A DNA stretch of 64,000 bases from Rhodamnia argentea (Eukaryota > Streptophyta > Magnoliopsida > Myrtales > Myrtaceae): NCBI RefSeq assembly GCF_020921035.1, contig NC_063157.1, positions 8,406,001 through 8,470,000 on the forward strand. Direction: 5' to 3'. Below the pieces are notes generated by a model. The model was not told the DNA's origin, did not search any database, and saw nothing but the letters and a program-made list of their open reading frames with translations. Numbering within the stretch: the first letter of the stretch is position 1; the number at the start of each line of letters is the position of its first letter. Shown here piece by piece: positions 3,604 to 48,057 of the stretch. A program made the position numbers and the translations under genes.

Positions 3604-3612
3604 AAACCCTAG
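3604..3612 (+). promoter_or_regulatory. Telo-box-like motif upstream of TyrRS
   Basis: AAACCCTAG lies about 550 bp upstream of the TyrRS start codon, near where the first (UTR) exon should begin. AAACCCTA telo-boxes are enriched close to the start sites of plant translation-machinery genes and work in either orientation. The link to this gene is inference from position; a short motif can also occur by chance. Confidence 0.3.
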
Positions 3613-3699
3613 CTTTATGGAGCCAGGCGGCTTAAATGGTGTGGATCTGCTGCTGATCAGAACGTTGCGTGGGCTAATCAACGAAGGGTGATGGCTGGA

Positions 3700-4214
3700 A
3701 TATTGTGCACTGTGAGCGTAAACCAAAAATGAAAAATTGCAAAGCAATCTGTTACTGTCAGTAAAATTTCGACCAGAAAAAAAAAATTCTGTTAGTAAAA
3801 TACTACTGTTCTTCCAAGAAATTACCTTTGTAAGGCAATCTGTTAATAAAATACCACTGTTCTTCCAAAAAGTTACCTCGCTCCATCTCCCTCATGTCTG
3901 ATAAGCTTGTAGAAAGCTACTCGTCTTTGTCAAATAAAAAGAATTTACACACGTATAAAACATGTTATATGGTGCGCGGATAAAAACATTTAATTTCTTT
4001 TACTCGTTTCATAACTTTTCACCAACTCATTAATATTTTCACTTGGGGCATGATTATAGTTAACCGATTGTTCAGTGGTAAACTAGCACGGTAACTTATC
4101 ACCATAATCCTCCATTTAGATCTCAATTCCCCTACCTTCAAAATCAAACTCAACAACTATTGTTCTTGAGCCGGGAACATACGAGAATTTTTTACCATTT
4201 GGATTACATATCGA
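3700..4214. other. AT-rich spacer, no gene seen
   Basis: This is the promoter side of the TyrRS gene followed by AT-rich sequence. A short near-duplication is visible: the segment ending ACTGTTCTTCCAA occurs at about 3795-3830 and again at about 3840-3875. No convincing coding frame or RNA gene was found. Confidence 0.5.
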
Positions 4215-14700: not shown

Positions 14701-15264
14701 CCCTCCAAAGAAAACGTTTTGATCGATCCAAACTCAATATATGATATGTCCGACTATTTCTACAGCCCAAAAAAAGGAAAGCCCGTGCATTGTGTGTTGA
14801 ATTTGTTTGGTAACGATCAAGCGTTCCTCTGGATATCATTTCCCAAGAACTAGCTAAAGTACGAACGACTCCGGCTCGACCGGGCAATCAAAGAGACTCC
14901 GACATTCTGGCATTTTCCACAATTAAGAAGAGAAACCTCGGAGAGACCGAATAAAAAAACTAACCAAGATGAAGTCGTTGCCGAGGCCGTGGTACTTGAC
15001 GAAATGGAGGAAACCGCTCTCCCGGCGGTCGAGGAAGGACGACGGAGGCGCGCTCCTCTCCGGAGCCCGGGCGGTCATGGAGGCGGCGGCGGAGATCGCG
15101 AGCCGAGGGTTCCGAAGTGGGATTCTGGCGCGGAGGAGACGGGACAGAGGAGGGGAGGAAGCGGGAGAAGGGGAGAAGAACGAGAAGGGTTCGACGGAGG
15201 CTGAGGGAATGCGGGAAGCGGAGCTCGAAGGGAGAGTCGTGGTGGAGGCGGCGGCGATGGCCAT
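11774..15264 (-). CDS. dapF: Diaminopimelate epimerase, chloroplastic
   Basis: Converts LL- to meso-diaminopimelate in plastid lysine synthesis. Nine exons with GT-AG introns join in frame: 15264-14965, 14642-14475, 14392-14322, 14006-13949, 13714-13535, 13334-13259, 12628-12569, 12442-12369 and 11890-11774. The result is 367 residues plus stop. The first about 75 residues are Ser/Ala/Pro-rich, as in a transit peptide. The mature part begins near [20 protein letters not shown]. The two catalytic cysteines are visible: CGNGVRC (Cys about 158) and ACGTGACA (Cys about 310). The end is ...[18 protein letters not shown] chose the ATG at 15264 because it gives a normal-length transit peptide; the frame stays open upstream to 15552 with an APAPAPAPE run, so an earlier start is possible. 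The gene looks intact and functional. Confidence 0.95.
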
Positions 15265-16335
15265 GTCTTCGCTCACGATCGCTTGGGTGGGATGGTCGTC
15301 TACTCCACAGTGGACTTCATTTGGGAATTTATACGGTCCGATTCTCGCGCCGGTTTCCGGAGCCGGAGCCGGAGCCGGAGCCGAAAAGGCGACGACGGCG
15401 ACGGAGGGAAGGGCAAAACTGCCTGCCAAAGAAGCAGAATAGAGAGGTGGCGAGGACTTTAGTGGAAAACCGAAAGAGGCGAGAGAGAGAGCGCACTGCC
15501 AAAGAAAAACGAGGCAGCAAATAATGTATCCTAAAACATGGCAATAAGGCAAATATAAAATACTTGATTAGATGGTGAACTTCTTAGCTGCTTGACTCCC
15601 AGTATGTTATACAAAAATGGCCATTTGGTGAACTTCCATCAATTTTGATGTAATTGTGTGGATAGCAAATACAAACTAAAGCGAAGAACAACAAAAATCG
15701 CGATAATCACAACAGATCATGATAATAATTCGACGAGGACATTCAGTAAGTCATCATGTAAAATCTGATATTAGTGCTTAAGGAATCCCACCTAATGCCT
15801 TCGCTTGTTAATTCGTCTTAATCTTTGTCGAGTGATATAGTTCAATTAGCAACAGTAACAAAGTGAAAAAGGACAAAACCTGGTAAAAGCAAATCACACA
15901 GCAACAGCTAAAAATTGTTTTCTCCCAATCATATCTGTAATCCTAATAGGATAAGCATCGCATAAGGCCTCAGAAAGCAATGCCGCACGACAAGTTTTTA
16001 CGAGGAAATCATCACCAGCTCCCTTCTTTAACTTGCTATACAGAGTATAAGAACTCCGAAAAAAATGTCCTTGCGTCATTTTGTCGAGATGAAAAGCTAC
16101 AGTTCCCTCATGGAGTTACACAATCTAATTGGGGGGTGTGTGTTTTCAAGCTCTGTTCTGTTGAGATAGCTTTTGGAAAAAAAAAAGGACTGGGGAAAAA
16201 CGCTAGAGGTAGTCGCAGATCTAACGAACATAAGGTTTGAACAGAGAATGCGAGTCCAAGCTCCAAAAGGACGTTCCTTCGGATAGAAGGGCGTTAGAAA
16301 ATCTTACCTGGAGACGGGGAAGAGATGGAACGAAG
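15265..16335. other. dapF promoter side; one unidentified minus-strand frame
   Basis: Upstream of dapF the sequence is GC-rich to about 15.45 kb (probable 5' UTR and promoter), then AT-rich. A minus-strand frame at 16079-15894 (KKGAGDDFLVKTCRAALLSE, then YPIRITDMIGRKQFLAVAV and a stop) has a protein-like composition and could be a stray terminal exon. I do not recognise the family and no linked exon was found. Confidence 0.25.
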
Positions 16336-18940: not shown

Positions 18941-18952
18941 AAGTCCCACACA

Positions 18953-18963
18953 GGAAAAGACGC
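18953..18963 (+). promoter_or_regulatory. USE of U5 snRNA copy 1
   Basis: GTCCCACACAG matches most of the plant snRNA upstream sequence element RTCCCACATCG and lies about 70 bp before the U5 start. Thirty-four bases further on, where Pol II snRNA genes carry TATAAATA, the sequence is ACAAAAAC, so no canonical TATA box is present. Confidence 0.7.
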
Positions 18964-19024
18964 AAGAACATGGAAACAAGACCACTCACAAAAACATGAG
19001 GTCGTCCCCAAGGAATGGTCACGC

Positions 19025-19146
19025 AGCCATGTGGTGAGCACAGAGCGAACTATTCTTTCGCCTTTTACTAAAGAATACCGTGTGCTCGCCTCAATCAGTG
19101 GCATACGCCAATTTTTGGAGGGGGCTTCCTCAACTGAGGAAGCTCC
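19025..19146 (+). ncRNA. U5 spliceosomal snRNA, copy 1
   Basis: The invariant U5 loop 1 with its stem is present (GAACTATTCTTTCGCC, then TTTTACTAAAGAATACC). It is enclosed by the pair GAGCACA/TGTGCTC. The Sm site AATTTTTGG follows at about 19110, then a terminal stem-loop (GCTTCCTC/GAGGAAGC) and the 3' box AGTTGAA at 19157-19163. All structural parts look intact. The 5' end is set by similarity (AGCCATGTG) and may be off by a few bases. Confidence 0.88.
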
Positions 19147-19156
19147 TAAAATTGAG

Positions 19157-19163
19157 AGTTGAA
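19157..19163 (+). terminator. snRNA 3' box of U5 copy 1
   Basis: AGTTGAA fits the plant Pol II snRNA 3'-end box AGTNNAA, 10 bases after the terminal stem-loop. Confidence 0.65.
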
Positions 19164-20418
19164 TTTTCAGTTTTTGAGCTTTCGCCAATTTTCTGACTCA
19201 TCGTAAGGGAATGGATGTCTTCAATCACCACCAACATGGATCGAATGCGTTTCTAAGCCAAGTGACTGCAAAAGCTTTCTACAAGTGTTGGATTCGAACT
19301 CCGAACCAAAATCGGTGTATGGTTCTGTCTCATCTCAAGTCTCTGAGGTTTCCAAGAGTCTTCCAAGTCCGCTATTAAGGGCTTATTAGAATCAATTTTT
19401 TGTATTTGGTAACTGTATAAAATTTCTGTTCTCGGAATAGAAACGCAATTGGTAATTGCACAAATTTCTGTTCTGGGAAATAATTTCTCTTCCCAATTTG
19501 TCATTTAAATCAAATAATTACATAATCATATTTGATGACTTTTCTCAGACCCCACGGTTGCGATCCTCTTGTACCATGACATCTTTTTGACCAAAATATG
19601 GATGCTTCAGATTTGTTCCCTGAAAGGATAATACACTGAAATTATTGTTTTCCCATACTTTTCTTAAGGCTATGCATATGTCAAGGATGCAATAGGTGAC
19701 TCTCATTATCTTTTATTGCTTCAAATGAATAAATTCCATTGTTGCCACATAGGTGGCTCGGTTTTACTCTTGGATATCATGCGAATGGTCATTAACATAG
19801 CAAGGTACTCCGGAAACAAATCAAGCAAGGCTTAGGAAAAATCGAAAGGCAAAATCATCAAAAATAGAATTGGCCAGTTGAATGGACCCATTTATTACTT
19901 TTTGAGATTTTTTGGGATTTTTCGAGACGATTTGCCCATGAGTGGAAAAATCATCATTTGGGAGAAATCGGAAGACAAAATCATCAAAAATAGGATTGGC
20001 CAGTTGAAATGACACATCTCATAATTTTTGAGATTTTTTCTAATTTTTTAGAATTTTTTAGAATTTTCCATTTTTTAGATTTTTTAATCATTTTCTATTT
20101 TTTAATTAATTTCCGAAATTTTTTATTAAAAAATTATTAGGACCTAGTCGGGTTGACTTGGCCCACGCCTCGTGGGCGCCCAACAAAAGTGAAGGAAGAT
20201 ATCATTGCCTTTTTAATCCTCAAAAAGTGTTCTTTTTATTGAGAAACAACTTTTTTTTTTTTTTGTTTCTCAAAATTGACCCAAAAGCATTCTCGGAAGC
20301 ATAATTAGAAACAGAATTATTTGCGTTACCAAATGTGTTTCTGGTTCTTTTTTGTTTCGAAGAACAAAATCAGAGGAACGGAAAGGTTACCAAACATGCC
20401 CTAATTATTCTTCTTTTA
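19164..20418. other. Spacer with direct repeats and transposon-like ends
   Basis: A segment at 19250-19370 (AAGCCAAGTGACTGC, GGATTCGAACTCCG, TTCCAAGAGTCTTCCAAG) is a diverged copy of the sequence just upstream of the U2 copies at 24.0 and 31.2 kb. Two direct copies of an about 65-bp unit (AAAATCATCAAAAATAG, ATTGGCCAGTTGAA) lie at about 19836-19905 and 19966-20035. Stretches at 19395-19505 and 20225-20400 look like opposite ends of a hAT-type MITE ('tttggtaact' and 'gttaccaaacatgccc'). Confidence 0.45.
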
Positions 20419-20583
20419 GTCCCACATCGGGCATCCGAAAGGCATCATCATGCACCAAAGCAGGAGACAAAAGAGGCGGTAGGAAGCATTTCAAAGCTTG
20501 CTGCTGGGTCTCTTGTGCGTCGCTTGGGGCGTTTCACTGCAGCCCTTGCTAGGCGCACCCCGCCCCATCAAGCCCAGTTAAAA
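20419..20583 (+). pseudogene. U2 snRNA pseudogene, internally deleted
   Basis: The promoter USE is present with the full consensus (GTCCCACATCG at 20419). The sequence then runs as in the other U2 copies up to TTTCAAAGC, just before the RNA start. There it jumps directly to the stem-loop III/IV part of U2 (CTTGCTGCTGGG, GCAGCCCTTGCTAGGCGCAC) and ends in the 3' box AGTTAAA. The whole 5' half of U2, including the branch-point-pairing GTAGTA and the Sm site, is missing, so it cannot make a working U2 RNA. Confidence 0.85.
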
Positions 20584-20721
20584 TGAATTTGCTTCACAAA
20601 CCTTGTTTAGCAATGCCGCTCTTGCTTGTCTTTTCTTGACAATGTTGAATGGTTTGGCAGGGTTGGAAGTCAACGAGCGGCCACTGATGAATGTTTTGAG
20701 ATAAACGCATATGCCGATTGC

Positions 20722-20835
20722 TTTTAAGGAGTTTAGCCCCGACACTATCCAATAAAGTATGCAGTTCCCTGGATGTCCTTTTTAGTTTTTCACCAGGTGA
20801 AAAGAGTTCTCATGTCAGCCTCGGGGGAGAAATCC
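20722..20835 (+). repeat. Diverged direct repeat, copy 2 (partner 16340-16465)
   Basis: Same landmarks as copy 1: GATTGCTTTTAAGGAGTTTA, CCAATAAAGTATG and TTTTTCACCAGGTGAAAAG, then AGTTCTCATGTCAG. It marks the left part of the second U5-containing block. Confidence 0.7.
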
Positions 20836-22905
20836 GGTCTTCAAACCTTTATGGCGATTGCTGTCTAAGAGAGTCCTGCTGCGGCACAGCTCGATAACAT
20901 CATCCTTTGATCGGTCGTCGCTTGACTGTAACAGTAACCAGGTGAGGAAAACTGACTGAAGTGTCTTTGAGACTGACGATAGTTTTATGTCGACATAAGT
21001 CATTGTTCTGTGGCAGCACCGTGAACACATAACGAGTTTGCTTTTCCTACTTTGTTGACATTGCATCTCTCTTTTGTCCTGCTAGTTGGTAGTAATCATC
21101 TTTTAAGAGATTACAAGAGAGTATGCTGTTGCTGCAGAATCTTGAAACTACTTGTTGAATTTTCAGATATCCAGGATGTTTAAAGAGCTCGAGAATGAGC
21201 AGAGGATTCGTGAAGAGTACCTCACTGGTTCTGATGTGTTGTACTCTCTTGAGGGGATCTTCAACTGGGGGCTAAAGGTGCTGCTGGATAAGCTCAATCC
21301 TGGATGTTGTGCACATCTTATTCGAAGCGATCGGAACTCACGATAGCGTTAATAGAGCCGTACTCCTTGACGCACAAGAGCAATTCGAAACCTTTCCCAC
21401 GTGCACGGGGTCCTGGCCGTATGAAATTCAAGAATACACCTTTTTGAAACTTTGCCATTCACAACAGCATCGTTTGAGGCACAACTCCTACTCGACCAAT
21501 GTTCGTTCTATGTCAACATATCCATGTATGCGGATTTGTGATGTACGGATATGGAATCTCATCAATGAGGGAGTTGTAATACTGCAGATCAAGAGGGAAT
21601 TTGGGTCGTTCGACAAATACATATGGATTATTTGTCAACGCGATGCAGACAAGCCACAAGATTCCAAGTGAAAAAGTCAAATGCAGAGACCATTAGTAAA
21701 GACATGGTAAGGAGGGGATTCAGGTTCGTCGGTCCGACTCTAGTTCACTCCTTCATGCAAGCTGGCTGGCCTCACCAATGACCACTTGATCACTCGCCAT
21801 CGCCGCCTTCAGTGGACGGCATTAGCAGAACAGACCACCGCTTGATCCGTCCTCCCATGGGAACTGAAAGAAAGTGAACCCAATTTTAATCTCCTTGTAA
21901 TTTCCTTGTGCAAGCGCAGCTGCAACTTGAGAGAGGTGACCATCGCACTCCGCATGATTTGGGTGTGTGAGGGGATGGAAATGCATATGGAAAGAGAAGG
22001 GCCACAAGCCTCGCCAGTCTACTACTCTCTTCATCTCTTTATCTCTTGGAGCTTTTTTGCATTCGGCTTTTGTTGATTTGAGTTCGAGCAGAGGCCAAAA
22101 GAAGAAGAAGAAGAAAGAAGAGGAACCGAGCCGAACTGGGTTTCCAGTTTGGGTTGTGTTCGGCTCGGCCGGCGGATCGATTCAAAGCAAACGCACACCC
22201 TGACAGTTCCATTTCCTGAAAACCCGAACCATCGACACCCCCGCTTACTTTTGGGTTGCGTAACTAAACCACAAAGCTTTCAGGTGTGGTCTCGGTCTCT
22301 CTCTGTGTTGGTGAATAATTATGGGGTCGTCGCTGTAGGAGCCAAGCAAACATCATGCCGAAGCGAAGAATCCAAAAGACTAGCGATCCGTCTCCGTTTC
22401 TCGGCTTTGCTTGTGCTATAAGCGGTCCTCTTCTATTATAAAATGAGCATTGAAGTTTTTCTATGATGGTGAATGTCCCACAAATTCATGGCTCCTAAAT
22501 TGGTTTTTGAAAACTTTCCTTGTCAGAATCATGACCATTCGAAACCGGTTGAACGGTCTCGGTGGTTTGTAAAATTGCTTTCAACCATTGCGGTTTATGG
22601 TAAAATTGGTAATATTGGACATAATCGTAAAATCGTGCAAATTTTAATCTTTATCCATTGACAGCGTTAGTCCCATAGATAAAAAAAAAAAATTGGACCA
22701 AATAACTTGGGCTCACATGAAATAGGGATTTCGAAAAATGAGTTTGGCGGCGTAGACAGAATAATTTCCCACCCTTAATTTAAATGAAAAAAACGACATG
22801 TCATTTAACGAATAATGCAAAGACGTTCTATTATAGGTGAGTAGCTATAAGATACGAAGAAGCGCAAAAGTAATGAAAAGAGCTTCTTCCACTAGTGGTT
22901 CTTTA
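20836..22905. other. Spacer before U5 copy 2, no gene recognised
   Basis: A plus-strand frame at 21167-21346 after a TTTTCAG acceptor-like site reads MFKELENEQRIREEYLTGSD and looks exon-like. It stops soon after, and I cannot identify it or connect it to other exons. The rest (purine run near 22100, AT-rich part at 22.6-22.9 kb) shows nothing else. Confidence 0.3.
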
Positions 22906-22911
22906 AGGAAC

Positions 22912-22922
22912 GTCCCACACAG
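22912..22922 (+). promoter_or_regulatory. USE of U5 snRNA copy 2
   Basis: GTCCCACACAG is identical to the USE of U5 copy 1. Thirty-five bases downstream the TATA position reads ACAAAACA. Confidence 0.7.
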
Positions 22923-22993
22923 GATGTGAGGCAAGAACATGGGCAGCAAGGCCAGCGACAAAACACGAGGTCGCAGGATTGGAGAAATCACGC

Positions 22994-23115
22994 AGCCATG
23001 TGATGAGCACAGAGCGAACTATTCTTTCGCCTTTTACTAAAGAATACCGTGTGCTCGTCACAATAAATGGCATACGCCTATTTTTGGAGGGGCTTCCTCA
23101 AATTGAGGGAGCTCC
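22994..23115 (+). ncRNA. U5 spliceosomal snRNA, copy 2
   Basis: Same architecture as copy 1. Loop 1 and its stem are identical (CTTTCGCCTTTTACTAAAG), with GAGCACA/TGTGCTC closing the long stem. The Sm site here reads TATTTTTGG instead of AATTTTTGG. The terminal stem GCTTCCTCA/TTGAGGGAGC and the 3' box AGTTGAA at 23126-23132 follow. The single change in the Sm site could weaken Sm binding; otherwise the gene looks intact. Confidence 0.87.
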
Positions 23116-23968
23116 TAAAATTGAAAGTTGAAACGATTTCTCAGCCTCTTAAACATGTAATGTCTCACTTGGGTGCTGTCCTCCTCAAAAGGTTCTGGCG
23201 ACTACGTACCTTATTACCAGCAATGCTCTCTTCAAACCTAACACGGCACTGCCGATCGCCAAATAATATTTACCGTCTTTCACTAACCGCGTATATGTGA
23301 CTACTGACTACTTCTATTTTTTTTTTTTTTTGGTCTGAAAGAGGAGTCGTAGGAGCCTGTTTATGGAGTTTACCCAGAAGCCAACACCTGTGGCAATGTC
23401 GGGCTCAGAGGAAGAGGAAATATGTGACTTATCTCCATATGTTGACTAAAGAAGCGTGACCGTGCGCTCGCAATCCTTGCAACTCTCAGATCCGGAAACT
23501 GGACCATTGGCTTCAAAGACAACGTTGTCACTGAGACCAGTTCAAGCGTCAAAATGCACAACATAAGGCGCCATTCAATGAAGCCAACTCCGGTTCAGTT
23601 TAATCGGCTTCACTCATTCGTGTATAGAATGGTGTTTTATCTGTCTCTTGGGCTGTCTCGCATGGGTAAGATTCGTAAGAACGAAAGAGCAGGAGTATTA
23701 GCACCATGGATTCTTGCTTCGCACCATGGATTCTTGCTTCACACCAAGGCTTGCGTTTCTAGTTTTGGTCAAGAGTTTTCACTCGTTCGCTGGCACAGAT
23801 TTGATCGTGGTTTCTCCAAGCCAAGTGACTGCGAAAACTTTCTTGGTAAGGATTGGATTCGAACTCCGAATCAAAATCATTAAGCCACTGCAGGTTTTTC
23901 TCCACGAGCCTTCCAAAGTCTGCCATTAATTCTTCTTCTTTTCTGGGACCGTGAAACACTGAAGCTGA

Positions 23969-23979
23969 GTCCCACATTG
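23969..23979 (+). promoter_or_regulatory. USE of U2 copy A
   Basis: GTCCCACATTG, one mismatch from the plant USE (C to T). The TATA position 33 bases further reads AACAAAGG. Confidence 0.65.
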
Positions 23980-24045
23980 GGCGTCCGAAAGGTATCACGC
24001 ACCAGAGCATGAAACAAAGGAGGAGGCCAGGAGACGTACGAAAGC

Positions 24046-24225
24046 ATACCTTTCTCGGCCTTTTGGCTAAGATCAAGTGTAGTATCTGTTCTTATCAGTT
24101 TAATATCTGATACGTGGGCCATCGGTCCACATGGAGAGGCCGCCACGGTAGCTTGCTACTGGGCCTATTGCGCGTCGCTCGGGCGTTGCACTACAGCCCT
24201 TGCCTGGCGCACCCCACCCAAGCCC
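24046..24225 (+). pseudogene. U2 snRNA copy A, Sm-site segment deleted
   Basis: Starts ATACCTTTCTCGGCC and matches plant U2 perfectly in character through stem I, the branch-point-pairing GTAGTA, stem IIa/b and the stem ending GGTCCACATG. It then lacks about 24 bases that hold the Sm site (present in copy B at 31303-31326) and continues with GGAGAGGCCGCC and stem-loops III/IV. The 3' box AGTTGAA follows at about 24227. Without an Sm site the RNA should not mature into an snRNP, so it is called a pseudogene although promoter and ends are kept. Confidence 0.85.
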
Positions 24226-24753
24226 AGTTGAATTTTGCCTTCCAACATTCAACATGCTTCGTTTTGTTGCATGTATAGACCGAAAACATACTGACGGGTC
24301 GAGGTCTGCTCGTGCAAGGACATAAAAAACATTCTCTGGTCGTTGTTTCGTGTCGTCTGTTGTTGGGTCCTCCCCAGGACTGATGCCTCAAAAACATTTG
24401 AATAATTGTTACGACATGAACGCAACTTACGTTAAAGCATAGAAAAGGCCGAGCAACTAGGACTTTTGGAGGGAAAAGCAATTTTTGCCTGGCACTCTAG
24501 CTCAATACAACTTGAGAAGAAAACACGAGAAAATAGATTCTTAGATTACACAATGACAACGAAGCAACTGGCAACCTGCACAGGATTGTTCTTTCATGCG
24601 CACTATGGAAAGTAGAAACTACGTACCTCAAGCAGGCCATTCTTTTAGCTTGAACCAACGAAGCAGATGCCGACCAAGACATCTTTTAAAGTCGCAAACA
24701 AACTGAGATGACCGTGCGAAATAAGTTTTTGGACTGGGAAGAGACCGGCACTT

Positions 24754-27138
24754 TCATCGGAGCGTTCCCACTGCCCTCTTGTACGTGTACCACCTTGCTA
24801 CCAAGAGATAAGCTCCCAAGTTGAGCACGCTGAGGACCGTCAACAGCCAAAAGAAGTAATGGAGGTGACCGTAGTTCAGATTGTCCGGTATCCATCCCAG
24901 CCTCCCGTGTCTTGTACTAATACTCGTGACAATAGTCACCAGGAGAGAGCTCAAGTAGCTCCCGAGTGCATTTGTTGTGAGCGAGAGAGCGGAGCACGTG
25001 CTCCTCATGGCATCGGGCGCTTGCTCGTAGAAAAACTCCAATTGGCCAATGAACGTGAACACTTCCGCACAACCGATAAGGAAGTACGGGGGGACCTGCC
25101 AGAATATCGACATCGGTACGTACTTGTAATTGTAGTAGTCATGCCTCCTTACCATCTTTAGCCTAATCACCTCTAGTATTGCTGCCGATATCATGGCGAA
25201 GATGGATATGAAGAGACCGATCCCCATTCTCTGCAGTTGGGTTAAGCCGCTTTTGTGACCCGTGAATCTCCTCGCCACTGGAACAATGACGCGGTCGTAT
25301 ATAGGGACCCAGAATATGACGCTCAGGGTGTCAAAGATGGAGAGAGAGGCTGCTGGAATCTTGAAGCTGGAGTTTCCAACATGAGGGTCCATAGTATAGC
25401 CTTGTAAAACAAATAAAGTACCCATCTGGTTGCACACAGTAGCAAAGACGATTCCGGTTGCCCATATAGGAAGCAGTCGTATGATCGCCTTCAACTCCTC
25501 CACTTGGGTGACGGTGCACAGCCTCCATGGATTCACGGGTTCCTTAATGCGGTCGGTTGGTGTTTCCACAGCAGCCTTGTCGAAGAAACTGCAGATTAAG
25601 AAAATGCAAAGAAACTATCGTTAGGACAAGCAAGTGTGCTGAAGGATTTCTTGGAGTAAAGTAGAGCCAATTCGGAAATTAAATTTCACCATACTCTCTT
25701 GAGGGTTGCAGATTGGAGTTCTATTTTCTTCTCTTTCGTGTGGAATCGAGTTAGTATTTGTACCCTAATTGTCTCACATAAACAGCAGCATAACCTTGGA
25801 ACTAACAATCATGCAATTGATACAGTATGTGCTGCACGATTGAGAAATACGTTGGGACTGCTCACTTTCAACCAACTCAGGTGACTGACTAATTTAACCA
25901 GAATGAACTGAGGAATCCTGATCAAAGTTTGATTGAACAGTGCAATCACACAACTGCAATTTGAGGCACTAACCTCAAATCTTGGGTGTGATCATGCTTG
26001 CGGCTTCCTTTGATTGAAGACTCGGCATCTGCAGTCTCATACAGTAGAGACTTGTCAGCCGGTACTTCCACTCGATATTTTCTGAAGGACGCCACCACCA
26101 CCTGACAGAGGCGCGTGAGGGGGCTCCCTCCGGGTTTTTGGTTACGAAAAAGGCGCGTGCCCGAAAAGAGAGTACATACTGCGATTACCATAGCAGCTGC
26201 TGGAATGCCGAAACCCAACCCCCAACCCACATTGTCTTGTATATAGACCAAAACAGAGCCCGCAATGAGCGCGCCTATATTGATTGATAAATAAAACCAG
26301 TTGAAGAAAGAACCCTTGTGCTTCTTCTCGACCTCATCAGCATCGTCAAATTGATCGGCTCCATAGGATGAGACACAAGGCTTGATCCCTCCAGTCCCTA
26401 GGGCTATGAGATAGAGTGCTATAAAGCACACTGCACTTTGTATGTCCGTAGCATGGCAATTATCTTTTGCCGTACAGCTCGGCTTTAGTCCCGGGACTGA
26501 AGCCGACAGCGTCAGCAGTGTCATCCCCTGTGAATCATGATATAATAAGTAAACCTTGCTGAATCTTAGTTGATTGTAAACAGTATGCTATTGGTTCTAG
26601 TTGGTAAGATATCTATGTGAATGTTGAACAAAGAAATGCGGAACCCCTAATTTGTGAAGCACAAACTGTGCAGGTTGATTATCAAGTACTCAGAAGAGGA
26701 AAGACATGTAGTGTCACTTACGAAAACATAGATAATCGAGAAGATTGCTATAGTCCAATATCTCCCAAGATAGGCATCGGCGATAAAAGCTCCAATCAAA
26801 GGAGTGATGTAGCACGTTCCTCCCCAGTTTGAAACATTGTTAGAAGCGGTCGTACTGTGTTGATGCAAGCGGAGCTTAAAGTAAAGCACCAGATTGGAGC
26901 GCATGCCATAGTATGCCAGCCTTTCACAACATTCATTGCCTATTGATAAGTCAAAGATAACATAAGCATATATCCCTTCTGTGAATAATAAGGTTCACTT
27001 GAGCTCTTTATGGAAGTGGTTGTGAGAAGTACCTAGAATAAAAGGGCAGGCCTTCCATGTTCCGGTTTTCTTTTTGTTGGCCGGGTCGCCTTTGTAGTCC
27101 ACCGTTCCATCATTCGTGTAAACATCTTCTTCTGCCAT
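24754..27138 (-). CDS. NRT1/PTR family 8 peptide transporter, copy A
   Basis: Proton-coupled di/tripeptide transporter of the NPF8 (PTR1/PTR2-type) clade, about 12 membrane helices. Four exons join in frame: 27138-27033, 26939-26722, 26527-25974 and 25588-24754, giving 570 residues. It starts [20 protein letters not shown]. Family signatures are [11 protein letters not shown] (ExxER motif), [40 protein letters not shown] and [12 protein letters not shown]. The frame is intact and the length equals copy B. Compared with copy B and remembered Arabidopsis NPF8.1, three otherwise constant positions differ: QMGTLF (Ser to Gly, about 349), [10 protein letters not shown] (Gln to Pro, about 460) and ALGSYLSS (Asn to Ser, about 503). 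The gene may be drifting or have altered function. Confidence 0.93.
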
Positions 27139-28979
27139 GTGGTTTTGGCGATTCTCGTCTTTGCGTTGATTTGTCTCAATTTGGCTTCCCGCCAAGTGGT
27201 CGAGGAAGCTATAATGTCTTCAGGCTGCAGTAGAGTAGCACGATTCACATAAAGCCTTTCTGCCTTCATTTCTCCACAAAGGCGAAATTACTAAAGTTAC
27301 ATTTGTGAAAGAGCGACAAATCGACAAACTGTGGTCAGGTTCGCCATTTCAAATTTCACTAAGTGGTTGAAAAACTATGCTGTTTTTAAGGTGGATGGAC
27401 TCGTGAAGTCAAAATATATTCTTTTCCGGTCTATCGCACCAGCTCATATGTTTCTTAATCCCGATTCTAATCTTGGAAATGGACCAGCAAACAGCACCAT
27501 CACTCATGAAACAAAGCAGCAAAGTACTACAACTTCAGAGGCAGATCTGGCAGAATGCAAATAGATGTCCCAATCCAATCCAGCATAACAAGTGTAAATA
27601 ACTAACTAAGCCCGACATAATCACGAGTCGAGCCTGCATAAATAACCGAGTCGAAGTAAATAATACCACGAGAATCTTCAAAACCAATATCACAATTTGG
27701 CGAGCGAGCGAGCGAGCTCAATTGCTGCTCTATACTAGCACCCTAACTCCCGATGCTTGTGACGAGCATTTGTGGCCACACAAAGGGGATGATGAAGATC
27801 AGACTCTCTAACTTGACTTTCTAAACAATGGCGATTGGGCTAATGGAGCACAATCCAGTCAGCGCAAGTATTGTAGATCTCTCAAGAGTTTGCAGCGCGA
27901 AGGAACTTCCGTGTGATCGTGAAAGTGGGCTAATCAAGAGCGCGCCCACACAATTCATCCCGCTGGTTGAACCCAGTTACAGTGATCAGCACAAGATGTG
28001 GGCGGGAACGACCCACGAGCGCTCGCAGAACTCAAAGCTCAACAACCGGAAAGTCAACCCACGAGTCCTTGACTGACTGACCATGACTGACGCATCTCAT
28101 TTGCTTACAGGACCTGCAACTCTCGACCAACAGCTCGCCGAAGAAGAGAACAGCCAGAACAGAACAAAAAAAAAAAAAAACTGAAACGCTTGGCGAGGTC
28201 ATCGTCTCAAGCTCGAAAGTGAAACAAAGATAGAGCAGCCCATGGCGAGGCTTCAATCTTGCCTGTGCGTCGGCTTCTTCCGGTGCTCAGAGAGAGACGG
28301 GGAGAGGGGAATGCTCATCAGCGGCCGGAGATTCTCCTGCGACGGAGATAGCTGAAGAAGACGGTGGTCGTTTTGAATCGCCCACCCAGCTTTGGGAACG
28401 AGGGAGCTTCACAAGCTCAGACCGTTTTACTCGAGCTCGCGGACAGTTAGCTCTTCCCAAGCAATGGCCGTTTAGCATTATCTTTTAATTTTTCATGTCC
28501 GCTCTTTTCTTATAATCTATTTTGTCGTTATGAAATTTATGATACAAGGTAAATTTAGCCAATCGCTTGCGCATTGCTTCTCCGTGACGTCTGGTTTCCA
28601 TTGTCGAGCGGGCGATCCACCGTTGATGCGTGATTCATGCTCGGAAAACGAGCAGGGGAGGGACCAATCTCGGCGGAACATCGTACAGTCCATGAAAACG
28701 ACGAGGGCAGAGCAGACAATGAAGAGTGGCCGGTAAGTCCGGGCGCTCCTTTTGGACCTGTCTGAGGATTGACGATGATGTCGTTGTGGACAGGAGAAAA
28801 ACTGCAACACCATGTCTCTGTGGACTCTTCCACCTCTCACCTCGTCTCTGTCAAAGTAAGGAATGTAAGCCACCAATATGGCACGTAAGCAGAAAATATC
28901 AAATACTACGTGATAGAAGAGAGGAATGGTGCGCACCTTATTTGAAATCCATCGAAACTCAATACGGAACGGGGGCCAT

Positions 28980-29280
28980 TCGGAACCCAAGCGCTTCCCC
29001 GTTATTCTCTCTTTGAAACACACACTGGCCGAATTAGAGTGCCACTCACGAACGGGGTGTGTTCTTCCTTTGTGTGAGTTCACTTGTGCGTCAAAGGGTA
29101 GAGGAGGAAATTGAGCGCTATTTATCAAGTTTTCAGCCATGGCCCCTTCATCATGGGCCGGGTTTAACTCAACCCATACTAGCCAACCCATATTAAATCG
29201 ATTACGAATCCTTATATCTTGTCTTATTAGACCAACTCGTAAAACGGTAAATAACAATTTCAATAAATGTAAGCTCATTT
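28980..29280 (+). repeat. Direct repeat, left copy (partner 29990-30275)
   Basis: Shared blocks include CACTGGCCGAAT, GGTGTGTTCTTCCTT, GAGCGCTATTTAT, CCAACCCATATTAAAT and CGTAAAACGGTAAATAAC. The two copies are about 300 bp long and 1 kb apart, like LTRs of a short non-autonomous element, but clean TG...CA ends and a primer site were not found. Confidence 0.6.
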
Positions 29281-29989
29281 AGAAAAATTCTTACATTCTC
29301 CCACTTTGGCTATATTAATTGTAATCGTCTTGTATGTACGCACCTTTATGCTGGTCTAGAGATATTCTTGATAATCAATCCAACCCCATAAAGCCTCAAG
29401 CATTGTATCATGGCTGTAATTGCATCAATAGACACAGAGACTTACATGATCACGAATGCCTTTAACTCTATTGATATGGATTTAATATGGTAATATGGAA
29501 ATGGATAATACCTTACAAAATAGTGATTATTTACGTGTCATCCCCTTTGTCGGTTACATTCTCTCTCCTTATGTATCACAAAACTTGATATGCCACTAGA
29601 AAATATTCTTTGTGTTTTCAACGAACCTACATATGCATTGTCCTTATGGTTAACTTTACTTTATGTATAACAAGACATATATTCAAGGCTAATAATTAAA
29701 TGCCCCTAACCTTTAATCAAGGTATACACGTACCTTATGATTTTCACCGGATATATGTCACCACAACCGTTGACAACGGCCAACAGAAGTGACATTTCAC
29801 TTGCACGAGCACGTGACAATGCTTGGGCTAACTCCTGGCGTCCTCTAGTGGCATACAACCACTCTGAATGGTCTTCTAAAAAAGATTTATTCGGCTATGT
29901 GATCAAAACTAAAATTTACGGAAGAAACACGCACAAAATAGGCTGAAAATCTTGACATTCACCGGTAATCGTCTCGCGCTAACTTTGTT

Positions 29990-30275
29990 CAGAACCCAAA
30001 TGCTTCTCCTCTATTTCCTCTCCAAAACACTGGCCGAATGAGAGTGTTACTCACGAGTGGGTGTGTTCTTCCTTTATGTGAGTTCATTTATGCGTCGGAG
30101 GGTAAATGAGGGACTTGAGCGCTATTTATAGAGTTTCAAGCCGCGAGTCCTTTCATAATGGGCTGAATCTAACTCGGTCCACACTAACCAACCCATATTA
30201 AATTGATTAATTATCCTTAATCTTATTAGATTAATCCGTAAAACGGTAAATAACGATTTCAATTAAAGTAAGCAG
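29990..30275 (+). repeat. Direct repeat, right copy (partner 28980-29280)
   Basis: Same block order as the left copy. This copy has GCGCTATTTATAGAG, which keeps a TATA-like TATTTATAG; in the left copy the corresponding part reads TATTTATCAAG. Confidence 0.6.
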
Positions 30276-31147
30276 GAATATTAAGACAAATGGCCCCTAA
30301 CACATGTGTATGTCTCACATGGCGGCTGTCTCCAAGTTCTCGGTTCCTTGAGTTCTCGGCTCTGCTGCTGGGTTAGTCTTCGAGCCTCAATCATCTTTCA
30401 AGCGACCTGACCTAAACCCCAACACCGCACCGCCGATCGCCAAATAATATTACCCTCTCCCCCTAACCGGGTACATGTGCGACCACTTGCGGTTGTAGGA
30501 GCCTGTTTGTGAAGTTTACCCTTGCTGAAAAGTAGCCAACACCTTTAGCAATGTCCGGGCTCAGAGGAAGAGAAATATGTGACTATCCCCATATGTTATA
30601 GTCCACTAAAGGACGGTGACCGTGCGCTCGCAATCCTTGCAACTCTCAAGTCCGAAAACCGAACTATTAGCTTCAAACCAACGATATCACCGGACTAGTT
30701 CCAGCTTCAAAATGCGGAACAAATGGAACCATTCAATGAACCAACACCGGTTCGGTTTAATCGGCGGTATTTTATCATCTCTTTGGCTCTCTTGCGGGGG
30801 TAATAACAGAAGAGCAGGCGTAATAGGACGATGGATTCTTGCTTCACACAAAGCCTTGCGTTTCTAGTTTTTTCGAGTTTTCCCCTCTGTTCTCTGTCTC
30901 ATCGGTAAACGGATGGATTGCTGTTCCACTGCCACCAACAGACAACACACAGATCGGTTGCTTTTCTAAGCCAACTGACTGCAACATCTTTCTTGGTAAG
31001 GATTGGATTCGAACTACGAACCAAAATCATTAGCCGAACGGACGTGTTCTCGGTCCTCTCTCATCTCAACTCCACCGATGCTTTCACGAGTCTTCTGACT
31101 CTGCTATTGTTCTTCTTTCTTGCGAATAAAAACCATGAAAAGGAGGA

Positions 31148-31158
31148 GTCCCACATAG
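31148..31158 (+). promoter_or_regulatory. USE of U2 copy B
   Basis: GTCCCACATAG, one mismatch from the plant USE. The TATA position 34 bases downstream, the spacing typical of Pol II-type plant snRNA genes, reads ACAAAATA. Confidence 0.65.
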
Positions 31159-31224
31159 GGAACGCTAAAAGAGTCACGGACCGGAGCGGGCGACAAAATA
31201 GGAGGCGAGGCGGCCTTTCAAAGC

Positions 31225-31427
31225 ATACCTTTCTCGGCCTTTTGGTTAAGATCAAGTGTAGTATCTGTTCTTATCGGTTTAATATCCGATACGTGGGCCA
31301 TCGGTCCACATGATATTAAATTAATTTTTGTAGGGGGAGAGGCTGCTACGGTGGCTTGCTTCTGGGCCTCTCGTGTGTAGCTCCGGCGTCACACTACGGC
31401 CCTTGCACGGCGCACCCCACCCAAGCC
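31225..31427 (+). ncRNA. U2 spliceosomal snRNA, full-length copy B
   Basis: Starts ATACCTTTCTCGGCC and contains the branch-point-pairing GTGTAGTATCTG, stem IIa, the Sm-site region (GATATTAAATTAATTTTTG), stem-loop III (GAGAGGC/GCCTCTC) and stem-loop IV, ending CCCACCCAAGCC. The 3' box AGTTGAA is at 31429-31435. Differences from copy A include GGCTAAG to GGTTAAG in stem I and a paired change in stem IIa (ATCAG...CTGAT becomes ATCGG...CCGAT) that keeps base pairing. It is the only U2 in the window with all parts. Stem IV has several changes, so activity is likely but not certain. Confidence 0.85.
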
Positions 31428-31444
31428 TAGTTGAATTTTGCTTT

Positions 31445-31800
31445 TGTTGATGCATCAAGGCTGCACGATCTATTTTCTGTTGAGTCGGTTTGTTAGAGTC
31501 CTATTTTGTAGGGTCGTTTAGTTGCATGTTATCTATTCCGTTAGTTTGTTGCGGATTTATTCTATTAGTTTGTTGCGGATTTATTTTGTTAGTTTGTTGC
31601 AGATTTTTTTGGATCAAGCAATCTGTTGCTTAGTGGGTAACGTGTGTTTAGTGGGCAACAAACAAAGTTTTAGTATGTACTTAAGTATTTTTCAGTTTTT
31701 CGAATAAAGTGAAGTAGTTTTTCCTTTCCATACGTTCTACTTGCTGCAAATACATAGCTTTTGCTGTCAATTCTTCTTTTTGTTCTTTGAGAAAACAACA
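31445..31800 (+). repeat. 5' LTR of the copia element
   Basis: 356 bp. By eye about 10 substitutions and no gaps against the 3' LTR (near 2.8 %), including the C/T change at position 17. Contains three tandem copies of an about 23-bp unit (GTTAGTTTGTTGCGGATTTA) at about 31530-31605. The likely polyadenylation motif AATAAAG is at about 31704. Confidence 0.95.
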
Positions 31801-31893
31801 TTGGTATCAGAGCCTTCTTGATCTTAAGGGGCCGTGAGTGACTTGTGAGATTGATTGAGAGGAGTGTACGCATCCATAGAAGACGAAGGCAAG

Positions 31894-34800
31894 ATGGAGA
31901 CAGGATCGAGTGTTTTTTCAATGACTCCACCGGTGTTTGATGGAGAAAATTATCAAGCCTGGGCAGTGAGAATGCAAGCCTATCTAGAAGGTTGTGATTT
32001 TTGGGAAGCTGTGGAACAAGATTATGAAGTTGCTCCCCTTCCCGACAATCCAACCATCAATCAGATCAAGCTTCACAAGGAGAGGACAACAAGGAAGGCA
32101 AAGGCAAAGTCTTGTTTATATCTTCTTTGTCTCACCTGCTATTTTCAGCAGAATTATGGCTTGTGAATCAGCCAAAGCTATCTGGGACTTCCTCAAAGCC
32201 GAGTATCAAGGAGATGAGAGGATCAGAAGCATGAAGGGGCTAAATCTGATCACAGAATTCGAGAGGCTGCGGATGAAGGAGTCTGAGACAATTAAGGAGT
32301 ATTCTGATAAGTTGACAAGCATTGCAAATCAGGCAAGAGTTCTAGACACCGACCTCTACGATAATAAGCTAGTGCAGAAAATTCTTGTCTCTTTGCCCAA
32401 AAGGTTTGAGGCAACCATTGCCTCTTTGGAGAATACCAAGGATTTGTCTCAAATCAAGTTGGCAGAATTGCTTAGTGCTCTGCAAGCACAAGAGCAGAGG
32501 AGGTTAATGAGTTTGGAAGGAAGTACGGAAGGAGCTTTGCAGGCCAAAGAACAACGGAATGTAGGAGGGAAAGGCAAGAAGTGGAAAGGGAAGAAATGGA
32601 ATGGCAGTAGTGGTTCGGAAGCTGCTGCAAGAGAGAACAGTGCGGGTAACTCCAAGAACAATTGGGGAAGGTATTCCTCATGTCGACCTTGTGGAAAACA
32701 GAATCATCCGCACTTTAGGTGTTGGAAGAGGCCGGATGTAAAGTGCAGAAAATGTCATAAGCTTGGACACATTGAGAAGTTTTGCAAAGAGAAGGGAGAT
32801 CAATAGCAAGGTGAGGCACATGCCGCAACCCAACAAGAGGTAGATCAACTGTTTGTTGCCTCTTGTTTCTCTTCTAGTACTCCATGTGAAAGTTGGCTTG
32901 TTGATAGTGGTTGCACAAACCACATGACAAGTGATGAAAAGTTATTTATAGATCTTGATAAGTCATTGAAGTCAAGAGTGAGGATTGGGAATGGGGAGTA
33001 CTTAGAAGTAAAAGGTAAAGGGACTGTAGCAATAGAGAGTTGTGAGGGAACTAAGCTGGTTTCTGATGTGATGTATGTGCACGAGATTGATCGGAATTTG
33101 CTGAGTGTGGGACAGTTGGTAGAAAAGGGATTTAAGGTGATATTTGAAGAGGGGAAGTGTTTAATCTTTGACTCCGGTGGTCGGGAGCTGTTCAAGATAA
33201 AGATGCAACAGAAGAGTTTTTTCTCTGAATCCTCTCGAGAAAAAGCAAGTGGCATTCAAGTGCCCGGCCGTTGATTCGGAGATATGGCACAAGAGGCTGG
33301 GGCACTTTCATCACAAAGGCGTCTTTGTTCATTCAAAGGAATGAAATGGCAACCGGGTTACCAAGCCTGGAGGAGCAAATCACAAAGTGCAAGGCTTGTT
33401 TGGTGGACAAACAGACAAGACTTCCCTTCAAGGAATCCACTTGGAGAGCTACAGAGAAACTGCAGGTGATTCATATAGATCTCTGTGGTCCACAAGTGAC
33501 TCCTTCACTAAATGGCAACAGGTATTTCATTATTTTCATTGATGATTATACCGGAATGTGCTGGATTTACTTCATGAAGCAAAAGTCAGAAGTTGCTGAG
33601 GTATTTCTGAAGTTTAAAAGATGGGTTGAGAACCAAAGTGGTTGTAAGATTCGGGTCATCGGATCTGATAATGGAACAGAATACACCTTGCAGAGGTTTA
33701 ATTCTTTCTGTGAAGAGGCTGGAATTGAGCATCAGCTTACCGCTCCCTACTCTCCACAGCAAAATGGAGTAAATGAGAGGAAGAATAGAACCATTATGGA
33801 GATGACTAGGTGTCTGCTGCATGAGAAGAATCACGCAAAAGAATTTTGGGCAGAAGCGACAAACACAACAGTTTTTTTGCTGAATAGGCTGCCTACAAGG
33901 GTATTGGAGAAGAAAACTCCCTTTGAAGCTTGGTTTGGTGTCAAGCCAATTCTAAGAAATTTGAAGGTGTTTGGTTGTGCGTGTTTTTCTCATATTCCAC
34001 ACATCAAGAGAGACAAGTGGGGAGAAAAGCTGAACCTGGAATCTTTGTTGGCTATAGTTTAGTGTCAAAAGCCTACAGGATCTTTCAACCACAAACGGGG
34101 AAGGTGATCACTAGTAGGGATGTTCAATTCCTAGAAGATGAGCAATGGGGCTGGACAGATGAGTTACAAGGGAAGCACAAGGAGGTCTCACTTGGAACGA
34201 CCAGTGGTAGATGATGTTCCAGTTAGAGGTACTAGATCTACGGCGATATATATCAGAGGTGTATTGTGGCTGTTTTGGAACCTGCTGGTTATGAGGAAGC
34301 TAAAAGTGATCAGAAGTGGATGAATGCAATGAAGGAAGAGTTGACTATGATAGAAAAGAACCAGACATGGGAGCTAGTGGAGAGGCCCGAAGACGGGAAG
34401 GTAATTGGAGTAAAATGGGTTTTCGGGACCAAACTCAATCCCGATGGCTCGGTGAATAAGCATAAGGCCAGGTTGGTGGTGAAGGGATATGCACAGGTTT
34501 GGGGAGTTGATTTCTCGGAAACCTTTGCTCCTGTTGCAAGATTAGATACAATTAGAATGACTCTTGCTTTGGCAGCTCAACAAGGATGGAAGGTGTATCG
34601 GTTAGATGTGAAATCTGCTTTTTTGAATGGAGTATTGCGGGAGGAGATTTATGTTGAGCAGCCGGAAGGTTTTGTCACACCAGGCCGGGAGGAGAAAGTT
34701 TATTTGTTGAAAAAGGCTCTCTATGGCTTGAGGCAAGCTCCCAGAGCATGGTATAGTAAGATGGATGAGCACTTGCTGGGTCTAGGTTTCAAGAAAAGTC

Positions 34801-35805
34801 TTAGTGAATCCACTCTATATGTTAAGAGGTTAGTATCCGACTTAGTGGTGGTGTCTCTTTATGTAGATGATATGCTGGTGACAGGAAATAATAGTGCTCA
34901 GATTATTGCATTTAAGCAAGAGATGATGAAGATGTTTGAAATGACTGATCTTGGTGAGATGTCATATTTTCTAGGGATGGAGATTAGGCGGACTCGGAAT
35001 GAAATTTTTATCCGTCGGAAGAAGTACTTGAAGGAGATCCTGAAGAGATTCAACATGGAGGAGTGCAAGAGTATGAGTACTCCAATGGGTCGGAAGGAAA
35101 AGTTTCAAAAGAAGGATGGATCAGAACCTGCAGATGAAAGAGTTTATAGAAGTTTGATCGTTTGTCTAATGTATCTCACTGCAACTAGGCCGGACATCAT
35201 GTTTCTTGTAAGTGTCTTGTCTAGATTTCTTAATTGTGCAAGTCGGTTGCATAAGATAGCTGCAAAGAGGGTGTTGAGGTACTTGAAAGGTACTCTTTCA
35301 TATGGAATTAAGTTCCGCAAAATTCGGGAGTTTAAGTTGCGGGTGGGTATTCGATAATGATGGGCGGGATCGAGTGGATGATATGAGGAGCACTTCAGGT
35401 TATTGCTTTACATTTGGGTCGGCATGCTTTTCCTGGTGTTCAAAGAAGCGGGAAATAGTAGCACAATCAAGCTATGAAGCTGAGTTTATTGCAGCTATTG
35501 CGGCTGTGAATCAAGCATTATGGTTGAAGAAGGCGATGGATGATCTGCATTTGGTGCAAGAAGAAGGCATAGAAGTATTTGTGGACAATCAAGCTACTCT
35601 GGCCATTTCACGTAATCCAGTATTTCATGGAAAAACAAAGCATTTTAAGGTCGGGTATTTCTTCTTGAGAGAAGTGCAAAAGGCTGGAGAGGTGAACCTG
35701 GTGTCTTGCAGTTCAGAAAATCAAATTGCAGATATATTCACTAAGTCGTTTCATGTTGGTCGATTCGAACTTCTCGGGGCAAAGTTAGGAGTGTGCAGCA
35801 CTTGA
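31894..35805 (+). pseudogene. Copia gag-pol remnant with frame breaks
   Basis: Polyprotein coding region in pieces. Gag starts near 31894 (PPVFDGENYQAWAVRMQAYL) and shifts frame near 32130. It carries a CCHC knuckle (CRKCHKLGHIEKFC) at about 32740-32785 and a stop at 32804-32806. Protease (WLVDSGCTNHM) begins at about 32893. The pre-integrase motif HKRLGH at about 33288 is in another frame. Integrase (DLCGP, SDNGTEY, SPQQNGVNERKN) spans about 33465-34060 and then shifts. Reverse transcriptase (KARLVVKGYAQ, RLDVKSAFLNG, SLYVDDMLVTG) lies at about 34400-35330. A break or deletion near 35330 precedes RNase H (STSGYCF, VAQSSYEAEF, QIADIFTKSF), which ends at 35805. At least four frame disruptions make it non-functional. 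Confidence 0.93.
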
Positions 35806-35818
35806 TCCAGGAGGAGAG

Positions 35819-36174
35819 TGTTGATGCATCAAGGTTGCACGATCTATTTTCTGTTGAGTCGGTTTGTTAGAGTCCTATTTTGTAGGGTCGTTTAGTTGCA
35901 TGTCATCTATTCTGTTAGTTTGTTGCAGATTTATTCTATTAGTTTGTTGCAGATTTATTTTGTTAGTTTGTTGCAGATTTTTATGGATCAAGCAATCTGT
36001 TGCTTAGTGGGTAACGTGTGTTTAGTGGGCAACAAACAAAGTTGTAGTATGTACTTAAGTATTTTTCAGTTTTCTGAATAAAGTGAAGTAGTTTTTCCTT
36101 TCCATACATTCTACTTGCTGCAAATACATAGCTTTTGCTGTCAATTCTTCTTTTTGTTCTTTGAGAAAACAACA
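35819..36174 (+). repeat. 3' LTR of the copia element
   Basis: 356 bp, same ends and same three 23-bp internal repeats as the 5' LTR, followed directly by the target duplication GCTTT. Confidence 0.95.
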
Positions 36175-36806
36175 GCTTTCACTTGTGATTCTTCAATATG
36201 GTTCTTCTTGTTCCATGTATAGACCAAGAACATATTGACGGGTCTCTTGTTTTTCACTCAATTAGCAAATGTTGGGTTTAGGATTGGGGGTCGAGGGTCG
36301 AGGCTTGAAGATGCACAAGGTCTGCTCGTGCAAGGACAGAAAAAACTGATCGTTGTTTCGTGTCGTCTGTTGTCGGGTCCTCCCCAGGACTGACGCCTCA
36401 AAAACATTTGAATTATTGTTACGGCACGAACCCAACTTACGTTAAAGCATAGAAAAGGCTGAGCAACTAGGACTTTTGGAGGGAAAAGCAATTTTTGCCT
36501 GGCACTTTAGCTCAATCCAACGTGAAAAGAACCACGAGAAAATAGATTGCGTTATACTTTTTCTTTCACTTCCATTTTTGTTTCTTAGATTACACAATGA
36601 CACAGACGTGAAGCGATCGGGAACCTGCACAGAATTGTTCTCTCATGCACACAACAGAAAGTAGAGACTATGCACTTTAAGCAGGCCAATCTTTTAGCTT
36701 GAACCAGCAGAAGCAGATGCCTATCAAGACATCTGTTAAAGTCGCAAACAAAGATGACGTCACTGTGGAAACAAGTTCTTGGACTGGAAGAGACACTACC
36801 GTACTT

Positions 36807-47651: not shown

Positions 47652-48057
47652 TAACATTTAGAAACGGCTTGCCCCATATCTTTTCTCTGGTTTAAAATGA
47701 TAATTCAATCCTTTAAAATTACAATTTAAATTTGTTGAGTCTACTTAAATTTTTTTTATGGAAAAATATCTACTTACTAGGATTTTTCTATTTGTGATTT
47801 CAATACTGTTGGCTAATCATTTTCCTCTTTAAATTCTCTAATATAATGCTAAATTAAGCAAATAAATGAGAAGCCATGAGAAGTCAAGAAAAAATTGAAA
47901 CCAGCGGAACCAGTCTCCCGAATGACATTCCACCGTGCATTTTGCAAAATGGCGATACTGTTGGCTAATCATTTTCCTAATTCTATGGATCCGATAAGAC
48001 GGGAGTTGAAATCAGCCGTTTATAGATTTTCCGCATAATTTTTTTTTATTTTTAGAA

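Follow-up and report, generated by a model that had tools for sequence, protein, structure and literature searches.

A mixed U5/U2 small nuclear RNA cluster in Rhodamnia argentea with at most one apparently complete U2 copy

Introduction

How many genes does a run of spliceosomal RNA copies hold? The question is raised by a 64,000-nucleotide (64 kb) stretch of the Rhodamnia argentea genome (contig NC_063157.1, positions 8,406,001 to 8,470,000 of the forward strand; hereafter the window, numbered from its first base), in which a first-pass annotation had described two U5 and three U2 small nuclear RNA (snRNA) genes on one strand. Annotation of such loci is of value because coding-gene pipelines miss them. 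Naive copy counting would give three U2 genes here, of which at most one appears to have all U2 parts. We find that the cluster is real but less tidy than first described. It is probably an RNA polymerase II (Pol II) snRNA locus in which a U5 gene followed head to tail by a U2 gene was multiplied by tandem duplication, and in which decay has since set in.

Results

The window was scanned with cmscan at the Rfam gathering thresholds (40 bits for U5, RF00020; 46 bits for U2, RF00004) and in a second pass with an E-value limit of 1. Four matches reach gathering level, two to U5 and two to U2, all on the plus strand (Table 1), and no other Rfam family does so in the window. Their E values, 6e-15 to 2e-31, rule out a chance origin. 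The mixed, single-strand cluster is thus borne out for four of its five proposed genes, which were found at the starts assigned to them (19025, 22994, 24046 and 31225); at the fifth position, 20419, there is no match at E<1. The second pass returned 13 matches in the window, the same four and nine below their own gathering scores, several of which sit on a purine/pyrimidine-rich hairpin at 42.7-42.9 kb. No tRNA genes were found in the window.

Both U5 copies look complete. Loop I, CGCCUUUUACUAAAG, and the Sm site are present in the alignments of both. U5-2 forms all pairs of the Rfam model, and U5-1 has a single U-U mismatch in stem I. The two RNAs differ at 14/120 positions, and stem I carries a paired change, G-C at 19034/19089 in U5-1 and A-U at 23003/23058 in U5-2. 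Folding compared with shuffled sequences gives z scores of -4.0 for U5-1 and -5.6 for U5-2. The BLAST match between the copies extends from the first base of the upstream sequence element (USE) to the last base of AGTTGAA downstream (18943-19163 with 22912-23132).

The U2 copies are less uniform. An Sm site between stem II and stem III is present in only one of the three, U2-3, and absent in U2-2 and U2-1; therefore, only U2-3 is classed as a candidate gene. Compared with U2-3, U2-2 is missing 24 nt after 24132, including the whole Sm site, a loss that the first-pass annotation overlooked. The conserved U2 loop IV motif UUGCA, which has a protein-binding role, is intact in U2-2 (TTGCACTAC) and changed in both U2-3 (TCACACTAC) and U2-1. 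A paired change is found in stem IIa, A-U at 24097/24108 in U2-2 versus G-C at 31276/31287 in U2-3. Full-length folding against shuffles gives z -3.2 for U2-3 and z -2.2 for U2-2; the 3' parts folded alone are uninformative (z -1.1, -0.2 and -0.7). Among the rows listed in the accessible part of an Arabidopsis survey, 12 of the 16 U2 rows of at least 190 nt have the same length as U2-3, 196 nt (PMC545797). The Sm core is assembled on the Sm site, as described in the accessible part of PMC5758608.

The U2 gene proposed at 20419 was rejected. A USE begins at this coordinate, Rfam gives no match there at E<1, and only a truncated 3' remnant lies downstream. Using the neighboring U2 copies as queries, nhmmer matches 20493-20561 (E 3.3e-8 and 1.3e-5), so that U2-1 retains approximately the last 65 nt of U2. 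Its promoter is fused to the stem-III region at the junction CAAAGC/TTGC. The start of U2-3 reads CAAAGC/ATACC and U2-2 at stem III reads GTAGC/TTGC, which places the end of the deletion at an AGC repeat. The description of three U2 copies therefore needs qualification: in U2-1 a promoter is followed by no more than a 3' fragment, in U2-2 the Sm site is missing, and only U2-3 has all U2 parts. As far as can be read from the sequence, at most one of the three copies is complete, and none is fully canonical.

The signals proposed to flank the RNAs are borne out: a USE precedes and AGTNNAA follows each of the five. The plant USE, consensus RTCCCACATCG, lies at about -75. We scored candidate sites against this consensus, allowing at most two mismatches; the accessible part of PMC545797 prints it as RTCCACATCG. 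The five USEs, with 0-2 mismatches, begin 77 nt (U2-2, U2-3), 79 nt (U2-1, whose start is inferred by alignment) or 82 nt (U5-1, U5-2) before the RNA start. The pattern itself is not enriched in the window (18 sites found, 18.3 expected). The evidence is positional: a USE 75-85 nt upstream is found at 0.19% of plus-strand positions, the slot having been set once the distances were known. AGTNNAA occurs just downstream in 5/5 copies, compared with a chance of 3.7% of plus-strand positions. The full plant 3' box, CA(N)3-10AGTNNAA according to the accessible part of PMC5079582, is present in the three U2 copies; the two U5 copies lack the CA part. Near -30, all five promoters contain ACAAA, starting 34, 37, 35, 34 and 34 nt after the end of the USE in U5-1, U2-1, U5-2, U2-2 and U2-3, respectively. 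Such a distance of 34-37 nt from the USE to the -30 element is typical of Pol II snRNA genes. By chance, ACAAA would occur in a 4-nt slot in approximately 1% of cases, a figure to be read with the copies being non-independent (two families) and the motif having been picked after looking.

Divergence is unevenly distributed over the three units of the cluster (U5-1/U2-1, U5-2/U2-2 and U2-3). Between units 2 and 3, the Kimura two-parameter (K2P) distance is 0.30 in the spacer, 0.39 in the U2 promoter and 0.11 in the U2 body; between U5-1 and U5-2, it is 0.48 in the promoter stretch and 0.13 in the body. The U5 body differs at fewer positions than the promoter stretch (14/120 versus 29/82; Fisher p 9e-5), and the 5' domains of U2-2 and U2-3 differ at 3/87 positions versus 175/720 in the spacer (p 8e-7). 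Over their full compared length, these two U2 copies differ at 18/172 positions. In a comparison of the 3' parts of all three U2 copies (68 columns), U2-3 alone deviates in 6 columns, U2-1 alone in 4 and U2-2 alone in 2, and all three are different in 4. Because the bodies diverge less than their flanks, and the U5 BLAST match spans USE to 3' box, we regard these copies as once-selected Pol II snRNA genes. Selection probably maintained the RNA bodies and their signals over much of the period after duplication; U2-1 and U2-2 have in addition lost sequence by deletion.

The spacers retain traces of duplication. Without an apparent insert of ~1 kb in unit 1, the alignable blocks are common to the three units and the starts of U5-1 and U2-1 would be ~450 nt apart. 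The spacers of units 1 and 3 align over 269 columns with 32% differences. Calling the insert 'MITE-like' (miniature inverted-repeat transposable element) is only a guess, as its inverted ends are weak (10-bp match, E 0.84). One spacer block of ~70 bp (19239-19313, 23810-23878 and 30952-31028) is 83-84% identical when unit 1 is compared with either of the other units. On the reverse strand of this block, GTTCGAATCC in our view resembles a tRNA B box; no tRNA or Rfam match was found in the block.

Units 2 and 3 have in common a collinear tract containing an NPF transporter gene (24.75-27.0 and 36.8-39.0 kb). Judged by eye, ~10-20 bp separate the U5-2 3' box from the start of their homology, and nothing of U5 remains to the left of that start; the homology ends near 28866/41299. 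The duplicated block thus probably left U5 out. The NPF tract (24266-28400 with 36210-40400) is ~10% diverged, with single 100-column windows at 2-24%, and the sequences on both sides are 16-32% diverged, which suggests, without proving it, later gene conversion of the tract. In NPF copy A, the first two open stretches match Pfam PTR2 (E 6e-58 and 3e-52); the third was assigned by homology to copy B.

Immediately beyond U2-3, 9 nt past its 3' box, lies a copia element with paired long terminal repeats (LTRs), a target duplication, a primer-binding site and integrase encoded before reverse transcriptase. The element proper spans 31445-36174, between 5-bp duplications of GCTTT at 31440-31444 and 36175-36179. 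Its LTRs (31445-31800 and 35819-36174) are 97.2% identical (K2P 0.029). At plant substitution rates of 0.7-1.3e-8 per site per year, the insertion is about 1-2 million years old.

Table 1. Features of the U5/U2 cluster and its surroundings, by position in the window
Feature	Position	Strand	Evidence or remark
USE of U5-1	18943-18953	+	GTCCCACACAG, 2 mismatches; left edge of U5-1/U5-2 BLAST match
ACAAA near -30, U5-1	18988-18992	+	at -37
U5-1 snRNA	19025-19144	+	RF00020 92.8 bits, E 6.1e-15; Sm AATTTTTGG
3' box core of U5-1	19157-19163	+	AGTTGAA; right edge of U5-1/U5-2 BLAST match
Putative ~1 kb insertion, unit-1 U5-U2 spacer	~19385-20405		three-unit spacer alignment, self-BLAST; ends by eye
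USE of U2-1	20419-20429	+	GTCCCACATCG, 0 mismatches
ACAAA near -30, U2-1	20467-20471	+	at -31
U2-1 remnant, 3' part only	~20498-20561	+	nhmmer with neighboring copies; junction sequence
3' box of U2-1	20576-20582	+	AGTTAAA; pattern scan
USE of U5-2	22912-22922	+	GTCCCACACAG, 2 mismatches
ACAAA near -30, U5-2	22958-22962	+	at -36
U5-2 snRNA	22994-23113	+	RF00020 93.6 bits, E 3.8e-15; Sm TATTTTTGG
3' box core of U5-2	23126-23132	+	AGTTGAA; pattern scan
USE of U2-2	23969-23979	+	GTCCCACATTG, 1 mismatch
ACAAA near -30, U2-2	24014-24018	+	at -32
U2-2 snRNA gene	24046-24217	+	RF00004 136.5 bits, E 1.1e-27; model's Sm stretch unmatched
3' box of U2-2	24226-24232	+	AGTTGAA; pattern scan
NPF/PTR-family transporter gene, copy A	24754-26994	-	open stretches 24754-25614, 25946-26587, 26647-26994
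Insert with two 77%-identical direct repeats (28979-29274, 29988-30273)	28979-30273		unit 2/3 junction
USE of U2-3	31148-31158	+	GTCCCACATAG, 1 mismatch
ACAAA near -30, U2-3	31193-31197	+	at -32
U2-3 snRNA gene	31225-31420	+	RF00004 152.4 bits, E 1.7e-31; 196 nt; Sm AATTTTTG
3' box of U2-3	31429-31435	+	AGTTGAA; pattern scan
Copia LTR retrotransposon including target duplications	31440-36179	+	Pfam gag, Pol_BBD, rve, RVT_2
NPF/PTR-family transporter gene, copy B	36807-39019	-	Pfam PTR2 E 1e-60, 4e-55

Elsewhere in the window, Pfam identifies a tRNA-synt_1b (W/Y synthetase) exon on the minus strand (1683-2081) and exons of a laccase-type multicopper oxidase on the plus strand (61599-63461; Cu-oxidase, Cu-oxidase_2 and Cu-oxidase_3). 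Together with the USE, the 3' box and the NPF and copia genes, the laccase marks the window as land-plant DNA. An open reading frame on the minus strand (14923-15567) has no Pfam match; it contains a stretch that we take to be a DapF-like motif. Downstream of the cluster, duplications of 1-2 kb with 75-78% identity pair 46932-49120 with 53400-55602 and 52006-53171 with 55717-56829.

Contig collections were also searched for exact core stretches. No U2 or U5 core was matched in viral contigs. In genome contigs, a U2 core was found in three contigs of bacterial assemblies, which we take for eukaryotic contaminants. Only one of them, L003, looks plant-like; it is filed under an assembly of Trichormus, an Azolla-symbiont genus. 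At 1697-1838, it carries a plant-like U2 with a USE-like site, TATAAG and the same U2 start. Here, TATAAG begins just 22 nt after the end of the USE, and a short USE-TATA spacing is characteristic of RNA polymerase III snRNA genes. On L001, a contig of a bacterial metagenome-assembled genome, U1, U2, 5S rRNA and three histone 3'-end stem-loops lie together (118-4586); this looks like an animal multigene cluster, that is, contamination.

Discussion

Growth by tandem duplication, followed by decay, would proceed in three steps. The shared spacer blocks suggest that an ancestral U5-U2 pair was first duplicated to give U5-1/U2-1 and U5-2/U2-2. In the second and least certain step, to which the homology edges point, a block of ~5.7 kb containing U2-2 and the NPF gene would have been duplicated, giving rise to U2-3 and NPF copy B. 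The edge of this block would lie just past the U5-2 3' box. Such a duplication would account for the order U5-U2-U5-U2-U2 without the loss of a U5. The third step can be read from the sequence itself: U2-1 has lost its 5' part by a deletion at the AGC repeat and U2-2 its Sm site, the 3' domain of U2-3 has changed, and the copia element has inserted next to its 3' box.

If the copies are transcribed, the USE and a weak -30 element would recruit Pol II, and cleavage of the transcript would occur close to AGTNNAA. Functional U5 would then be expected from U5-2 and U5-1, and U2-3 may yield a usable or an impaired U2. The RNA of U2-2 should form no Sm core, and U2-1 should yield no more than a short 3' fragment of U2.

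Several observations weigh against this account. The spacers of units 1 and 2 fail to align overall (56% differences); only blocks do. BLAST-significant matches between units 2 and 3 begin only at 23234, the closer edge being placed by eye. The NPF tract is ~10% diverged versus 24-33% for the U2 flanks, and a single simple block duplication would therefore need later gene conversion or some other history. In the 3' domain, U2-2 and U2-3 differ at 15/86 columns (one past the RNA end), which is not significantly below the spacer (p 0.18). In the Rfam alignment, non-standard paired positions number 10 in U2-3 versus 6 in U2-2, and stem IIa is missing from the minimum-energy fold of the full U2-3 despite its z score. 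Lastly, a TATA box is found in 0/5 promoters, which the first-pass annotation had also missed. The best match to TATAAA has two mismatches in each promoter, between -42 and -19; in random stretches, 51% have two mismatches as their best match and 17% do better. Lacking a TATA box, each of the five promoters may have little or no activity.

The second step has a rival that is compatible with the rest and that we consider possible but doubtful. Three full U5-U2 units would have existed, the third U5 being lost when the insert at the unit 2/3 junction arrived. The insert is indeed placed where a third U5 would be expected, a further point against our version of this step. In contrast, the by-eye edge of the unit 2/3 homology falls as if U5 had been outside the block, and in the insert region no U5 match was found by Rfam at E<1.

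The missing TATA boxes also bear on whether anything here is still alive. The five copies may be pseudogenes of an old active cluster, the plant relying on other U2 and U5 genes. The disabling deletions in 2/3 U2 copies, the altered loop IV of U2-3 and the two mismatches in each U5 USE are what one would then expect. However, the U5 bodies diverge less than their flanks, the edges of their homology coincide with the USE and the 3' box, and U5-2 keeps every pair of the Rfam model and differs from U5-1 by a paired change. We thus think it unlikely that the whole cluster is dead. The earlier picture of five working snRNA genes in one co-regulated spliceosomal cluster is highly improbable; it agrees with the USE and AGTNNAA at 5/5 copies and, unless the assembly is wrong, is contradicted for 2/5, U2-1 lacking most of the RNA and U2-2 the Sm site.

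This locus is an ordinary, well-supported annotation of a known kind, with two modest leads: the U5-then-U2 order shared with Arabidopsis, and ACAAA near -30. It would be a bold extrapolation, and one we hold to be rather improbable, that flowering plants have conserved the pair as a unit since early in their history, as may be the case for U1-U4, and that ACAAA in place of TATA is a lineage-specific snRNA core promoter. If the order were common to flowering plants, one could ask whether linked snRNA pairs are co-regulated units and help to balance the supply of snRNAs; should ACAAA stand in for TATA elsewhere among the snRNA genes of this plant, the rule for plant snRNA core promoters would need widening.

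The first-pass annotation considered mixed clusters a departure from the usual tidy picture, yet such clusters had already been published. The accessible part of the Arabidopsis survey reports 18 U2 and 14 U5 copies, seven U1-U4 clusters and one U2-U5 cluster, U2-17/U5-10 (PMC545797). In its Table 1, U5-10 is at 4690412-4690370 (43-nt match) and U2-17 at 4690105-4690008 (98-nt match), both on the minus strand of chromosome 5; since U5-10 has the higher coordinates, U5 is upstream of U2. The Arabidopsis pair thus resembles the locus described here in having U5 and U2 close together on one strand, in an implied U5-then-U2 order, and in having a shortened U2, the matches in the table being partial. 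It differs in being one pair, less than 200 nt apart and not multiplied. U2-17 has lost 3' sequence, whereas the losses here affect the 5' part (U2-1) or the Sm site (U2-2). Among the matches listed in the open-licence literature, judged by title and start of abstract, we found no other report of plant U2-U5 clusters.

The U1-U4 clusters of Arabidopsis, as presented in the accessible part of the survey (PMC545797), are similar in that two different snRNA genes lie head to tail, the pairs are multiplied and some members are pseudogenes. Unlike the present cluster, they consist of U1 and U4, 180-300 nt apart, and are spread over two chromosomes rather than forming one tandem array. The same source reports a USE and a TATA box for all 14 Arabidopsis U5 genes, whereas the U5 copies here have no TATA box. 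Compared with the plant Pol II snRNA promoter as given in the accessible parts of PMC545797 and PMC5079582, the five copies share the USE and AGTNNAA, with 34-37 nt measured here from the USE to the -30 element; they differ in having ACAAA instead of TATA in 5/5 and in lacking the CA part of the 3' box in 2/5.

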